From: Russula earlei
Taxonomy: Eukaryota > Basidiomycota > Agaricomycetes > Russulales > Russulaceae
Length of the DNA stretch: 64,000 nt
Assembly (NCBI GenBank): GCA_025769875.1
Contig: JAGFNK010000004.1
Coordinates: 125,001-189,000, forward strand
Direction of reading: 5' to 3'
In this document: positions 57,119-63,640 of the stretch, in pieces
Layout: each line of letters opens with the position of its first letter
Position numbering within the stretch: the stretch's first letter is position 1
Made by a program: the position numbers and the translations under genes
Notes under the pieces: generated by a model
Database searches by the model: none
The model's input: the letters and a program-made list of their open reading frames with translations, nothing else
Told to the model about the DNA's origin: nothing

Positions 57119-57320
57119 TTGTCGCAATATAGCCGATGATAATCAAGGCTTATATTCCCATAACTGTAATTATGTTTTCCATATAACGTTTTTATAATTT
57201 TATTATGACCCGTTTATGACCTGCTATGTAAGTTACATATGAGTTACATGATTAAATAATGGAAATGGACGGGTGTCTGAAATAATAACTGAACGTTATA
57301 ATACTATATACAATTATAAA
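57119..57320. promoter_or_regulatory. AT-rich divergent promoter segment
   Basis: About 200 bp of unusually AT-rich sequence between the AIFM3-like start and the palindromes. It includes the near-palindrome atgtaagttacatat and several TATA-like stretches (tataattttatta, actatatacaattataaa). Confidence 0.45.
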
Positions 57321-57410
57321 TCTCTGTCTTGGCCTAGTAAGGTCTACTAGAATCAGACTGCCAGAAATAGGCAGTCTGATTCTATAGACCAGACCAGGCC
57401 AAGACAGAGA
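57321..57410. repeat. Inverted repeat 1: 41-42-nt arms, 7-nt loop
   Basis: Left arm 57321-57362 starts tctctgtcttggcc and ends aatcagactgcc; right arm 57370-57410 starts ggcagtctgatt and ends ggccaagacagaga. The arms match with only a few differences around the middle (tagtaaggtcta versus tagaccagacca). Confidence 0.95.
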
Positions 57411-57558
57411 TGGCATGGTCATAGTTGAGCAACGATAGTGCACGTCTGGTCTACTAGAATCAGACTGCCAATAGGCAGTCTGATTCTATATTTTCAAGTA
57501 GACCAGACCAGGCCAAGACAGAGATGGCATGGTCATAGGTGAGCAACGATAGTGCACG
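57341..57558. repeat. Tandem duplication of about 105 bp containing a hairpin
   Basis: Copy A (57341-57444) and copy B (57448-57558) share ggtctactagaatcagactg, ggcagtctgattctata, gaccagaccaggccaagaca and gagcaacgatagtgcacg. Copy B has an extra ttttcaag and a shorter loop. Within copy B the arms 57444-57469 and 57474-57508 form a second hairpin. Confidence 0.95.
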
Positions 57559-57578
57559 CGCTATCGTTGCTCACCTAT
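57535..57578. repeat. Perfect 18-bp palindrome just before a start codon
   Basis: Arms ataggtgagcaacgatag (57535-57552) and ctatcgttgctcacctat (57561-57578) are exact reverse complements around an 8-nt loop. The right arm ends 4 nt before the ATG at 57583. Confidence 0.97.
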
Positions 57579-57582
57579 AACG

Positions 57583-58411
57583 ATGCCCTCTCTATCTACT
57601 ACTTCCCTTCTTCTCGTAGAGAACATGCGTGTCACACGCTCCATGTCCAAACTTGCCTCGCAGGGTTGCGGTGAGTAAACCTCCTCATGTTGTTTTGCGC
57701 CATTCGATATGACATACTCCAGCCGGGGTGATCGTCCGCCGTCCTCTGTCCAACAGGACGACGTCCACAAACAGCGGCACTAAGCCTTCCGCGAAGCAGG
57801 AGGCATCTCCGCTCAAACCCCTTGTTACGAAGCCTGCCTTCTCTGTCCCGCACCCGTACAAGACCGGCTTTGGTTTCGTCCTCAGGGGTGCTCCTAGAAC
57901 TCCCGAAGAACGCAAGCGTCTGCGCAAAGAGCGGCTTGCATTCTTCCGCAGGGCCCGCGCGTACAAACGCAAGAACCTGCCCAAGTTCAACCTTCGCCGT
58001 GCCCCCGCTGTTGCTGACGATGTCCCATACGTCCGGGAGTACGTCGACGAGCGGATCGGTTGCTACCGCATCATCCCCAGTCCTGCATTGCTTGCCCCGC
58101 CGGCGACGAATGTCCTGGGCCAGATTCTCCATCGTGACACTTTCACCGTCGTACCCGAGATACGCGAACATGCACCGCCCGAGTGGGACGAGTGGCGTCC
58201 GAGGTGCCACCCTGACCTTGATCCCGAGGTCGATTTGTCCATGCTCTCTGTCCCTTCAATGGACGCATCCGGCGACTTCCATCCCTACCATGTCGCACGT
58301 TGTTTCCCCATCTTGTGGCGCAGAGCCCTTGCCGAACACACTTGCGAGGTCCGCGACAAGAAGAAGCGCTCGTCCAAGGCCTGCACCATAGGTGGCCGTC
58401 ACCGCTTGTAG
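57583..58411 (+). CDS. Unrecognised basic protein
   Basis: No family recognised. ATG 57583 gives MPSLSTTSLLLVENMRVTRS and then MSKLASQG. A GTGAGT..CAG intron (57671-57722) leads to GVIVRRPLSNRTTSTNSGTK. The rest is one exon: HPYKTGFGFVLRGAPRTPEE, RKRLRKERLAFFRRARAYKR, DDVPYVREYVDERIGCYRII, LGQILHRDTFTVVPEIREHA, PEWDEWRPRCHPDLDPEVDL and HPYHVARCFPILWRRALAEH, ending CTIGGRHRL. The first third is very basic and helical; the rest mixes aromatic and acidic residues. No signal peptide or membrane segment. The frame is clean and codon use is coding-like, so I think it is real, though its promoter is occupied by palindromic repeats. It could be a mobile-element-associated or lineage-specific gene. 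Confidence 0.55.
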
Positions 58412-58659
58412 GGGCACAGCTTGACGTCTCCCTTTCCCGGCGGACCCTGAACAAAGAGCGTCAAGGCCCCTTGCATCTCAGCTAAGTAGTCATATCCATC
58501 ACCTTCCCTTTCCGCGTCCCGGAGTTGTGTCCGTCCGCATGGCGCACCCGCGACTGCGACGTGCGGCGGATGCAGCTCCATCATGGGACCACGGGTCTCC
58601 CAACAGAGGCTTGTGTGTCGGATATGCCCTTTCTTTTCTTTTAGTCCCATTTTCCGCGT
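58412..58659. other. Spacer between orphan gene and repeat mosaic
   Basis: About 250 bp after the stop. No gene seen. It grades into the T-rich tract and acceptor-like tttttttttacag at 58668-58680 that begins the mosaic. Confidence 0.4.
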
Positions 58660-61600
58660 GATATGCCTTTTTTTTTACAGATCCCCAATGGATCAATTAG
58701 CGGCGAGTTTCGATCGAGGGTGCGCACCCATCAAGACCCGATATCGAGTCAAGACCTGGAAGACCTGGAGCAGGATGCCGTAGTACGCTTGGATTTTCGA
58801 GGCTTGGCTAATTTTCCTATGTGGCCCGGACTATGTTGAACTACTGAGCGAGTTTGACTTGTCCCAGGACCCAGCAACTCTCCCGACTTCCCTTGGACTA
58901 CATTTGCTGACATTCTTGCTGCTTCCGCAGACTTTGCCATCCGGTCGATTCGGAATCATGACCGACTTTCTCGTGTCCTTATCTCTACAAGGGCATTCCC
59001 AGCACATGCTTGAGTGACTCTGTATTTCTATCCAAGCATGTTCCGCGTAGCAGAAGCGCCAGTTCTTTTGTGCAGAAGGGTGTGCCCAGGCCGAGGTCAC
59101 GCTTGGATGCTCGAGAGATCGGTGCTTGAGCGCCCTTTGGGCAATAGCGGGGTGCGTGCTTCGACCTCTTGTGAGAGACCATTTCTGACCAATCGTCTAG
59201 TTTGGAATAATAGAGGCATTGGCTTATTAGGTCGGAGGAGTACACTCAGGCCGAGAGTCTGCTCTGACAGCCGAGAAGCCAGTGCTTACGCGCTGTTTGG
59301 GGTCACTCGAAGTAAGCCCCCACGTCCAGTATCCTCACAGACGATCAAAGTTTGACAGCAGCGCTCAACTGCACCTCAACCTCGACTCGACTCTGTCAGC
59401 AAGGGCGTGCGGGACCGAAAGCAGTTCGTATTTCATTTCCTGTCGTCTAACTCATTGTTCCAGAATGGCTTCGGATCATAATGCGTATGCAAGAACGGAC
59501 TTTGAAAGTGACGGGGAATGTTCAGGTCGAGGACATGCCTTGTCACGGACGGGTTCATGCGCGTCTGTACTCGCACTGGCTCAAGGTGCGTGATGTTATC
59601 TGATCCATACCTTACTTGATGGTGTTTAACGAGATCATAAGGACAGGTATCGGACGAATTTCAGTCGATGGGGTGCGCCTGTTTTGTGGGCGAAAGGGCG
59701 CACCCAGGCCGAGGGTGTACCCGATCGTTCGTGAAGCTGGCAGCACCCGAAGCGCAACGGCAGTTGCCCCATGGAGTGGGTCTTCTCGCATTTACACTCG
59801 CGTAATCCATCCTTACAACAGTTCAAGGCCGTCTTGTCCGACGCATTTCCGCATGCTATGGCGTACGCAAAATGCATCATCCATCTACGCCGAGGAGGTC
59901 CTCTCACACCACTGTGTCTATAACAGACATCATACGCTTGATGCATAGCCGAGAAGATTATCCCCTTCCACTTTTCCATGACTATGGCTGATTATTCTCC
60001 CAGATCAAGATCACCTTATCAGGCGTATCAAGTGTGTTGTCTTTGTTGGCGCAGGGGTTTCACTCAGGCCGAGGGTGCGACTTCTCGTCCTCAGAGGCGG
60101 CACCATAATGTGTCTGCATCGCCCCAAGGTGTGTGCTCTCTACCTCCCTTTCGACTCCCCAGGTCACGTTTCGTATGCCCTCCTTCGCATGCCTTGTTTA
60201 CGATGATGTCTAATTTACAGCAAGTATCTCAGTGTGTGGCATCTTGAAGCATACGTAAGGCCGTCAGCTTTCTGGAGGGTGGGGTGCACTCAGGCCGAGG
60301 GTGTGCCTCATCGTCTCTGAGGCTGGCGCCGAGCGCGCTCCGCGATGTCACCAAGTAAGTGCTCGCCGACAATTCTAGCCCCTGTATCTGACAGTGTCTT
60401 GGGACAATTCGATACTGGCTCGACAGGATGAAGAGTTCACGGATGGAATTATCATGCGTTGCACTTGATGTCAAATCCACCTAGCCGAGGATGGGTTGAA
60501 TTCATCATGGACACGCGCTCACTGGAGACCTGTTTGATCCTGTTTTGTCAATGGCTCTACAACTAATGCTCCATTCACGATCTGAACAGATGCTTCTAGG
60601 CGTCAGTGCTGCTTGCGGCGTTGTATGCCCTGGCCGAGGGGATCGCACTTCGCTGCATGTACGTGAGACGCTCCTGTGTCCTCGCCGGGATTCGAGGTGA
60701 GTTCTTTTTTAAGTCCTAATATTGCCCATAACTTTTGCCACCAGACCAAGCTTTAAATCGTCTCGTGGTCGAACCGGTCATACTGTCAACTCGTATATCC
60801 TTGGTGCAAGTGTGGGCGTGTTGGCATCGCTGGCGAAGGAGCGCACGTTGGCCGAGCGTGCGTTTTGACGTCGGTGGTGTCGACACCCCGTGTGATTTCA
60901 GTTTACGTTGCGAAGGTATGTCTTCCGCACGGCCATTATAGTTACAGGCGCTCTGTACCGACGCTTTTCTCATTATATAATAGTCCGGCAGCAGGGGAAA
61001 ATGACTATGCCAGACGGATGAGTGAACCTTGGCCGAAGGACAGTGTTCGGACGTCGTGGTTTGGTCGACCCCACGCGGTTTCGACGTATGTATTATCCCA
61101 TTATCCTAAATGGCTGCTTTGGGAGCTTATCCAACTAGATGCGAGATTTGGACCCCCGCTCGTATTGACGAAAATGCGCCTTTCGTTTACCTTGGATCAT
61201 CCGAACGCGACGATTGTACCCGTGGGCCTATGGAAATTCCAACCTCATTTCATTTTTCTCTTCTTTCTTCTGGAACCTGCTCATTCAAGTCCCTCAGCTG
61301 CCGGCCTCTGTGAAGCGGGTGTTGTCCGGAACCTATTACGACTCAGGGATCGTGATTGCCCATGTCTTGGCTACCGGCCCGTCGAGCTCTCCGACAGGTG
61401 GGAATTTTTCTGTTCACTGGATTGTGTTCGGAGCTGTGTTCGGAGCTCCGCTGAGTGTTGTTACAGGGCCGATATACCGAGGCACCAGTGCCTGCATCTT
61501 CCCATGGAATCGACTTCGCTGGTGGAGGTGTGCTCTCAGGCCGAGGGGGCATGCTCTCTGACTTGCAGAGTCGATTCCTGAGATTTCATGAAAAGTTGAA

Positions 61601-61921
61601 AGGTACGATCCCCTTGCTTCACAACAACCGTATGCTCACCGTCTGCTGTTCGTTCAGTATGTGCGCTTCGCAGACGACGACAGGGTACACTCAAGCCGAG
61701 CTATGCCTCATCACAGCTGGGATTGAGCCCGAGCGTGCCACTCGCGTGCCAAGGTACTAGGTCGTCTACATCCGACTCTGCAGACCAAGGAACTTGCTCT
61801 GCGACTCCAAGATAAGCATAAGCCAACCGAATTAATTAAATCACAGACGACAGCACCGTATTTGACAAGGAACACGCCATGGTTACCTGAGCAATCGGAA
61901 ATCATAATTAGGATGGTTTGG

Positions 61922-62838
61922 ACTGGACGACGTAATCACACCGATGAGTATCTACCTATCTCTCCCAATTCCCGCCCTGGCATCGACGTCCAAAGCACGA
62001 CGTATCGCGACTGCGGCGTGCGGCGGACGCCGATGCCGCTCAAGGGTCACTTCTATCAATCTTCCCCATTCGAAACCGTACTCTCACAGATTCTAGGTAC
62101 TCCAGCGGACTGCAATTACCGACAGGGTGCGCACCCCTCAAGACCTTGGCCTATTAGCAAGACCAGCAAAGCGCTTATAGGCGGTCTCCTGAAAAGCCGA
62201 ATATCCTACGTCCAGGAGTCCGGTCAGTGAGGCCATCGCGGCGATTTTGATTGAATTTTTTTGCGTCTGTTTAGGGGCGCTCAGCTTGGATGTGTGATTT
62301 CGTTGACCCTCCTTTCCACTTCAGGTTCGTTGCGGTGCTCTTCTTCTATTCCAGGATTATCAATGTTTGTCACCGTCGTAATCACTGGACGACGTAATCA
62401 CACCGATGAGTATCTACTATCTCTCCCTATCCCCGCCCTGGCATCGACGTCCAAAGCACGACGTATCGCGACTGCGGCGTGTGGCGGACGCCGATGCCGC
62501 TCAAGGGTCACTTCTATCAATCTTCCCCATTCGAAACCGTACTCTCACAGATTCTAGGTACTCCAGCGGACTGCAATTACCGACAGGGTGCGCACCCCTC
62601 AAGACCTTGGCCTAGTAGCAAGACCAGCAAAGCGCTCATAGGCGGTCTCCTGAGAAGCCGAATATCCTACGTCCAGGAGTCCGGTCAGTGAGGCCATCGC
62701 GGCGATTTTGATTGAATTTGTCGCGTCTGTTTAGGGGCGCTCAGCTTGGATGTGTGATTTCGTTGACCCTCCTTTCCACTTCAGGGTTGTTGCGGTGCTT
62801 TCTTCTATTCCAGGATTATCAATGTGTGTCACCGTCGC
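61922..62838 (+). repeat. 462-bp near-identical tandem duplication
   Basis: Copy 1 starts at 61922 and copy 2 at 62384, both with actggacgacgtaatcacac; copy 2 ends about 62838. They differ at only a handful of positions (for example attttttt versus atttgtcg near 62252 and 62717). A third, strongly diverged partial copy lies at about 63370-63560 (cgacgccgatg-type landmarks and ttctcacagattctag versus ttcacagatcctag). Confidence 0.95.
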
Positions 62839-62880
62839 GGATAATTGGAGGTGTTGTGAGGGACTCAGTGTCACGTTTCA

Positions 62881-63053
62881 GAAAAGGTGCGTTGTTCTGA
62901 CCTTCCTCGGTCTGACAGTTAATCAGGGCTAGGTTTTGCAAGTTATTTGAGCCCTTGGGATTGTCCTTTCCTCCCATGGTCTCAAATAGCTTGCAAAAAA
63001 CTAGCCCTGATTAGCTGTGAGACCAAGGAATAGCATGACAACGCACTTTTTTC
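62881..63053. repeat. Foldback (MITE-like) inverted repeat, about 71-nt arms
   Basis: Left arm 62881-62951 begins gaaaaggtgcgttgt and includes taatcagggctag and gcaagttatttgag. Right arm 62981-63053 begins ctcaaatagcttgc, includes ctagccctgatta and ends caacgcacttttttc. Arms match at roughly 80-85% with a spacer of about 29 nt. No coding sequence inside. Confidence 0.92.
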
Positions 63054-63640
63054 GGAGGAAAGGACAAAAACGGGATCGCCATCTGGCGGAGGAGCGCTCT
63101 CAGGCCGGGGCGGCGTACTTTGCGGCTTACAAAGTCGATTCCTGAGAGTGCACGAAAAGTCAAAAGGTACGATTCCCTTTCCTCACAGGCCGCGGTCGCT
63201 CACTGTCTAGTGTTCGTTCAGTATGTGCACTTCTCAAACAACAACCATAGGGTGCACTCAGGCCGAGGGTATGCCTCATCACATCTGTGCTCGAGCGTAC
63301 CAGTCGCGAACGAGGAGTGCCAAGATGGATTGCCCTGCTTGAACTGGACGACATGTACACGGGGACTACAGGTGAGTATTCATCGTATCTCTTGTCCTTC
63401 CTGCCCTGGAATCGACGACCGAAGCACGACAGACCGCAGCTGCGGCGGGCAGTGGACGCCGATGCTGCTCAGCTGCAGTCTTCGTACTCATATCTGGGAA
63501 TCCTCCCATCTGAAGCCGCATGTCTTTCACAGATCCTAGATTCCAGTAGCTGCCTATCAAGCCCTCGACCGCGTGACAAATTCCATCAGCGCGCGCCAAT
63601 CTCCTCGACGGAAATCCTTGCTCGGGTATGTATTCATTCC

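Follow-up and report, generated by a model that had tools for sequence, protein, structure and literature searches.

Is a short core that recurs on the + strand of a contig from the fungus Russula earlei the remnant of a decayed coding exon, or does it belong to something else? The window analysed here is a 64,000-nt stretch (bases 125001-189000) of contig C4 (374084 bases), from a genome of 66.6 Mb in 1374 contigs; positions given without a contig are those of the window. An initial annotation had reported 13 copies of the core and had proposed that they stem from a small exon that was duplicated many times with its intron and then decayed. The repeat on one strand is real, and we count 14 units, E1 to E14. 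RNA folding of these units places the core at a hairpin tip; it is not what is left of a coding exon, and on the sequence evidence we consider it very probable that the locus holds a structured RNA. Allowing at most one mismatch, AGGCCGAGGG occurs 19 times in the window, eight of them on the + strand within 59.09-63.27 kb, whereas 100 shuffles gave a mean of 6.1 and a maximum of 14, none reaching 19. The units were taken from 28 sites listed by a looser core scan of 58.4-63.7 kb, and the cores of E1 to E14 start, in order, at 59089, 59249, 59525, 59707, 60067, 60293, 60483, 60632, 60850, 61031, 61539, 61694, 63103 and 63261. This choice was made partly by eye, with loose, poorly folding matches (such as those at 59888 and 59947) being dropped. 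We therefore repeated the arm test described below on 16 sites picked by rule (at most one mismatch to GGCCGAGG, + strand, 58.6-63.6 kb).

Each of E1-E11 is an exon-like segment with a predicted hairpin at its centre, the arms being paired over about 28-36 positions with between 15 (E3) and 33 (E9) predicted pairs. These 11 units span 59.05-61.58 kb, and their folds over 83 nt range from -21 to -55 kcal/mol. The loop reads AGGCCGA in most of them, and in E7-E10 a T-A pair can close GGCCG (AGCCG in E7). Comparing these 11 units column by column, we found that the tip, (A)GGCCG(A), hardly varies and that the stem sequences differ among copies: the majority letter is carried by 10.7 of 11 units in loop columns, 6.3 of 11 in the stems and 4.7 of 11 outside. 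Similarity does extend past the short core, as the initial annotation had supposed, since 20 of the 55 unit pairs beat shuffled sequence by at least 6 over the whole hairpin and 33 of 55 do so over the inner 29 nt. The flanks are not alignable, with one of 55 unit pairs above shuffled sequence on either side. Because conservation differs so much between loop, stem and surroundings and the flanks do not align, the copies look old, their surroundings having apparently diverged beyond recognition while loop and pairing were kept.

Taken over the whole set, the arms of a unit pair better with each other than with the arms of other units. In an alignment-free test, in which every 5′ arm was paired with every 3′ arm, own-arm pairing over all 14 units summed to -469.7, against a permuted mean of -315.6 (standard deviation 21.5), and none of 20000 permutations reached this value. 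The 16 rule-picked sites behaved in the same way (mean of -30.2 kcal/mol compared with -20.9 kcal/mol when permuted; 0 of 20000). Eleven of these sites pair best or nearly best with themselves, being beaten by 0-3 of 30 cross pairings, and the other five do not. The effect was missing at 103 sites picked by the same rule elsewhere in the window on both strands (-18.7 versus -18.9). A strand-symmetric version of the own-arm score gave 334.5 for E1-E11, compared with 215.0 (standard deviation 18.5) under permutation, again reached in 0 of 20000.

We also found that this pairing has been kept through sequence change. In an alignment of E1-E11 with 28 aligned pairs (A1), 70.8% of cells are paired, compared with 60.9% in shuffles, and 20 of the 28 pairs have changed on both sides, compared with 14.4 under shuffling (a count of 20 is attained in 4 of 500). 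The covariation score of A1 is 0.479, compared with 0.288 in shuffles (0 of 500) and 0.15-0.25 in slid registers. Most of the covariation is carried by the inner 11 pairs (0.587 versus 0.319). RNAalifold, supplied with no structure, returned 14 pairs, all in the A1 register, and 13 of them have a compensatory change. Within the E1-E6 subset, both sides have changed in 14 of the 28 pairs. A model built from E1-E6 only (R2), with the remaining eight units held out, recovered E9 (32.9 bits), E11 (30.4 bits) and the inner part of E14 (27.7 bits) at E values of 2e-5 or better. The next matches were the opposite strand of E4 (12.0 bits) and, outside the array, a best score of 11.5 bits. The + strand fold is more stable than the - strand fold in each of E1-E11, which agrees with a + strand RNA.

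Splice-like signals flank the units, as the initial annotation had proposed, and on the donor side this held up well: a donor-like score of at least 7 is found at +50 to +75 after the core in 10 of 14 units, compared with 3.5% of 20000 random places, and nine of the ten good sites lie at +61 to +66. The scoring matrix was drawn from general knowledge of fungal introns, and not trained on this genome. Acceptor-like and branch-point signals are weaker, present in 8 of 14 units against a background of 12%. The best-defined pairs of donor-like and acceptor-like sites enclose intron-like stretches of about 48-92 nt. From these signals we infer splicing of the units.

We next consider how far the array is confined to this locus. 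Searches of the genome by DNA and by pattern found no second locus in Russula earlei. A 5.3-kb query covering the array (E up to 10; the search skips very common words) matched itself and three partial stretches: the inverted repeat that it contains, the beginning of a nucleolin-like gene (contig C136) and 43 nt on contig C65. The last of these (C65:68463-68505) shares 91% identity with 61566-61608, the 3′ arm and donor region of E11, and lies about 80 nt before an ATG; it may represent either a captured fragment or a target. The 17-mer core occurs with 0-1 mismatch at four places genome-wide, all within the array, and with at most three mismatches at 117 and 115 places, compared with 59 and 46 for the control. 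Part of this excess is a separate sequence, CACTCAGGCTGAGGGGG: of the 24 places with two mismatches that lie outside the array, it accounts for 16. CACTCAGGCTGAGGGGG is a multi-copy element (for example at C23:146873 and C112:85663), with 16 identical places among those listed; these 16 loci gave no R2 match above 13.0 bits, and as far as R2 shows the element is unrelated to the hairpins. A degenerate 23-mer with at most two mismatches has 13 places genome-wide, six in the array and seven scattered, one of which, on C57, has a single mismatch; the reversed control has three.

Rfam returned no match at gathering score in the whole window, and its 11 matches at E up to 5 in 57-64 kb were all below gathering, with none on E1-E14. 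Tandem Repeats Finder reported no array of units, its sole array inside the region being a 12-nt one at 61423, which speaks against the satellite that the initial annotation had offered as an alternative. The same annotation had recognised no known repeat or transposon in the array. With no second locus and no head-to-tail array, a dispersed transposon or satellite was rejected within the limits of these searches. In viral and bacterial collections the bare core was present at 7 and 15 places, respectively, with one match per place, which by our own estimate is about what chance would give. On these 22 core-selected loci a model, R1, scored up to 26.6 bits, and it reached 21.8 bits even where the selected core was absent; in GC-rich DNA, R1 values of twenty-odd bits therefore mean little. 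We found no published description of the array in the titles and abstract openings among the literature matches listed.

What might such an RNA do? A constant loop on a freely changing yet paired stem points to a hairpin that is read at its tip. Many copies of the loop in one RNA suggest multivalent docking, and the long stem suggests a double-strand-binding partner. We put at about even the chance that the locus is a + strand non-coding RNA gene whose joined exons present the same loop many times over to a protein that reads it. A candidate docking mechanism, to which we give slightly less than even weight, would run as follows. The array would be transcribed from the + strand, and the intron-like stretches would be removed by splicing. 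In the joined RNA the same loop would then be shown some dozen times, each time on a stiff double-stranded stem, and the molecule could act as a multivalent docking platform, as a scaffold or as a sponge, to which a protein that reads the loop and binds double strands would attach. The partner might be of the ribonuclease III (RNase III) type; an enzyme of this kind could in addition separate the units by cleavage, and the genome holds six RNase III loci, four of them with two domains. More tentatively, this may be a new kind of RNA gene, in which duplication of an exon with its intron strings together a dozen long hairpins with a common tip and drifting stems for a loop-recognising RNase III or double-strand-binding reader, perhaps also a cutter. 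As a candidate structured RNA that Rfam does not match, the array brings its own internal replicates: 11 diverged copies of one hairpin in a single locus, with the three decayed units serving as a natural control. Should it prove to be expressed, it would illustrate the growth of a non-coding gene through duplication of hairpin exons, and would offer a direct route to a loop-reading protein.

Several observations weigh against this reading or limit it. All of the evidence comes from one genome and one locus, with internal replication only. The outer stem (16 pairs) is less certain than the inner one: its covariation score is 0.431 versus 0.284, one slid register reaches 0.333, and its ten pairs with changes on both sides do not exceed the shuffled level (190 of 500 shuffles reach this number). 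R2 missed five of the eight held-out units (E7, E8, E10, E12 and E13). Four of the 14 units (E7, E12, E13 and E14) fold no better than shuffled letters, and only six of 14 are among the 2% most stable places in the window. An unguided scan for single hairpins of at least 27 pairs did not single out the array, which held 18 of 239 on the + strand and 15 of 230 on the - strand in 5 of the 64 kb. E7 and E14 are without a good donor, those of E4 and E12 are weak, and for E9 the examined range contained no acceptor-like site. We had also considered the excess of G-U over A-C pairs as proof of strand; this was weakened by a cross-arm control, in which cross-paired arms gave 751 to 243, so that the excess is mostly base composition (difference, p=0.09). 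Finally, a docking loop has no obvious need for so long a stem, and the protein partner is hypothetical.

The main rival is a cluster of small-RNA precursors, in which the hairpins would be sources of fungal microRNA-like RNAs (milRNAs) or of hairpin small interfering RNAs, cut by Dicer into about 11 different small RNAs. Long stems and small loops do resemble such precursors. The structural part of a rule given for Coprinopsis milRNAs asks for one hairpin loop, a minimum free energy of -20 or lower and at least 18 bp (PMC6145500). Applied for structure alone, the rule, which also has read-count and RANDFOLD parts, agrees with 10 of the 11 folds of E1-E11 as read by eye (E3 has two loops). E12-E14 do not form the single stable hairpin expected of a precursor. 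Besides the four two-domain RNase III loci noted above, the genome holds 16 Piwi-domain matches on six contigs, some of which are broken. The RNase III loci C23:182105-183043 and C530:31700-32638 have the same scores and the same spacing; a single Dicer-like gene may be represented here by two haplotypes that the assembly kept separate. This rival, although the strongest, is made less likely by the pattern of conservation, which favours the loop, the part thrown away in such processing, over the arms. Near copies of the arms are also few: the 5.3-kb search gave one 43-nt match beyond the array's own repeat and the gene fragment, and 22-mers from the 5′ arms of E4, E9 and E11 (three of 11 units), with up to three mismatches, found one extra place, with three mismatches; targets paired less perfectly would escape such a search. 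Less probable again is a cis element, that is, hairpins in a long spliced untranslated region that regulate the mRNA of a neighbouring protein-coding gene; it overlaps with the docking reading, and the two do not exclude each other. On the same strand, an open frame that has relatives in other Russulaceae comes to an end at 58411, about 0.6 kb before E1, but the downstream neighbour is a gene fragment only.

Two further explanations are less probable still. Neutral palindromes, whose stems would be made and repaired by template switching in replication without selection on RNA, are in our view improbable. Template switching is reported to be able to generate hairpins and to preserve them, compensatory changes included (PMC8794818), and near-perfect inverted repeats are present in the same locus (57.3-57.6 and 62.9-63.05 kb). 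Repair would, however, favour Watson-Crick runs, and the pairings of E1-E11 comprise 234 Watson-Crick, 74 G-U, 14 A-C and 43 other, the G-U share being partly composition. A near-invariant loop amid unalignable flanks and a near-fixed donor distance would also be left unexplained. The least probable explanation is the one from the initial annotation, a decayed array of duplicated small protein-coding exons. The xGRG-like peptides that it described do share similarity, and their frame (frame 0) has the fewest stops (3, versus 10 and 8) and higher amino-acid similarity, with a z of 2.3-2.7 under a simple column shuffle. This signal vanished under a null that keeps both columns and pairs (frame advantage, p=0.26; stop deficit, p=0.33), so that the peptides are no more alike than the conserved columns yield and the frame has no codon-level signal past column composition. 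The xGRG frame has a stop in 6 of 10 proposed exons examined, and, judged by hand from splice-site offsets, reading frame is not kept across most of the 11 junctions considered. The longest frame, of 238 amino acids at 60865-61581, had no relative among 266 candidates at E 0.1 or better, and covariation from arm to arm would go unexplained. We therefore rejected a coding exon array for its lack of codon-level conservation, its stops and its lack of a homologue. Simple decay is likewise unsupported for E1-E11, because their arms stayed paired through compensatory change, but it does fit E12-E14.

Comparison with known systems places the array near several of them. Like primary microRNAs and fungal milRNA clusters, it has several long, small-loop hairpins in one presumed transcript; unlike them, its hairpins sit in exon-like units and conserve the loop rather than the arms. 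A microRNA or milRNA family is expected to have a conserved mature arm, and here the stem majority of 6.3 of 11 falls well below the 10.7 of 11 of the loop. The A-repeat of Xist consists of several copies of a conserved-tip hairpin in one non-coding RNA, with less conserved spacers. The array is similar to this description in having repeated conserved-tip hairpins in one presumed non-coding RNA, and differs in having one hairpin per exon-like unit, long stems of diverged sequence and a fungal host. Fungal clusters of intronic small nucleolar RNAs (snoRNAs) are described as having a multi-exon non-coding host with several small RNAs (PMC3596301), a layout comparable to the one proposed here except that the structure of the array sits in the exon-like segment. 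Rfam matched no described H/ACA or C/D snoRNA family on the array, undescribed snoRNAs being outside the reach of this search. The substrates of the yeast RNase III Rnt1p share with the array a conserved loop on a variable paired stem. The tetraloops preferred by Rnt1p are reported to be AAGU or NGNN, the latter mostly AGNN, and loops of three or five nucleotides are on record as well (PMC4334505), whereas the loops of the array are predicted to be mostly 7 nt (AGGCCGA) or 5 nt (GGCCG) and not an AGNN/NGNN tetraloop, and about a dozen of them occupy one locus. The nucleolin recognition element, with its reported loop UCCCGA (PMC12293987), is also a stem with a loop ending in CCGA, but GGCCGA of the array differs from it in two of six letters and is not that motif.

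The individual units, all given here on the + strand, vary in the strength of fold and signals. Measured against shuffled letters, 7 of the 14 have z at or below -3.5, E3, E8 and E10 are near -2.1, and E7, E12, E13 and E14 are above -1.5. E1 (59050-59132) folds at -38.6 kcal/mol on the + strand and -18.4 on the - strand, with a donor-like site at 59152 (+63, score 8.14). E2 (59210-59292; -37.1 kcal/mol) has an acceptor-like site at 59201 or 59214 and a donor-like one at 59312. E3 (59486-59568) carries the loop variant AGGTCGA, has 15 pairs at -29.5 kcal/mol and a second small hairpin in the same 83 nt, and lies between acceptor-like 59464 and donor-like 59586. E4 (59668-59750; 31 pairs, -48.5 kcal/mol) has acceptor-like 59647 or 59665 and a weak donor-like site at 59776 (score 4.24). 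For E5 (60027-60110; -36.5 kcal/mol, 29 pairs including 9 G-U) the sites are acceptor-like 60004 or 60023 and donor-like 60129, and for E6 (60254-60336; 32 pairs, -48.6 kcal/mol) they are acceptor-like 60221 or 60233 and donor-like 60355. E7 (60443-60526) is a weak hairpin with the loop TAGCCGA (-21.3 kcal/mol, z -0.8), whose own arms are beaten by 2 of 26 cross pairings; its acceptor-like site is at 60427. The loop TGGCCGA is shared by E8, E9 and E10. E8 (60593-60675; -34.4 kcal/mol) has acceptor-like 60590 or 60600 and donor-like 60697 (score 11.14). E9 (60811-60893) is the strongest hairpin, with 33 pairs at -55.1 kcal/mol (z -7.2) and a donor-like site at 60916; its acceptor-like site is at 60745, with none within 75 nt upstream. 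E10 (60992-61074; -30.1 kcal/mol) has donor-like 61086 (+55), and E11 (61500-61582; 32 pairs, -42.8 kcal/mol) has acceptor-like 61467 and donor-like 61603.

The last three units, E12, E13 and E14, have lost their fold. E12 (61655-61737; loop-like AAGCCGA, z -0.3) has own arms that are beaten by 19 of 26 cross pairings. E13 (63064-63146; loop-like AGGCCGG, z -0.6), which belongs to a duplicate of the E11 block, has a donor-like site at 63167, and E14 (63222-63304; z -1.3) has an intact core. Spread by duplication, another proposal of the initial annotation, is probable: E11-E12 and E13-E14 are still 76% identical, and a block E11-E12-B was probably duplicated to E13-E14-B3. The B units carry a second type of hairpin, with the loop region CGCGACTG. 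B1 and B2 (61922-62837, + strand) form a tandem duplicate of a 461-bp unit, and their identity of 97% indicates that the B unit was duplicated again recently. Related pieces are found at 58549 and, more diverged, at 63373-63471. The former lies in B0, a hairpin of the second type upstream of the array (58513-58595, + strand; -49.0 kcal/mol, 31 pairs), in which 25 nt are 88-92% identical to B1/B2. The latter is B3 (+ strand), a copy of the B unit that is older and folds differently; it shares 78% identity with B1 over 99 nt and 81% with B2 over 72 nt. Between B2 and E13 lies a foldback (62882-63051) with about 70 paired positions and -111 kcal/mol over 62870-63060, of which the genome DNA search found no other copy.

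Genes and gene pieces border the array on both sides. From about 63593 a partial copy of a nucleolin-like gene runs to 64000 and on into piece L002 (601-2033). Over 127 nt it is 96% identical to the copy on C136, which looks complete by eye. The partial copy lacks the first coding exon and ends near the first RNA-binding domain beside transposon-like sequence; the names nucleolin, hAT and Copia for the fragment and this adjoining sequence were assigned by eye and are presumptive. Upstream, the open frame 57728-58411 matches the Russula earlei protein F5148DRAFT_561642 (100% over its whole length). A protein search returned 71 proteins including its own record, the named ones being from Russula, Lactarius, Lactifluus and Multifurca, with one match in this genome. 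The protein has no Pfam domain, and no contig in the viral collection was found to encode a relative. Further upstream, between two genes, 57320-57597 contains three near-perfect hairpins of about 29-39 pairs, built of repeated and inverted pieces and without a copy elsewhere in the genome at E 0.001; this stretch looks like a young foldback or a nascent source of hairpin RNA.

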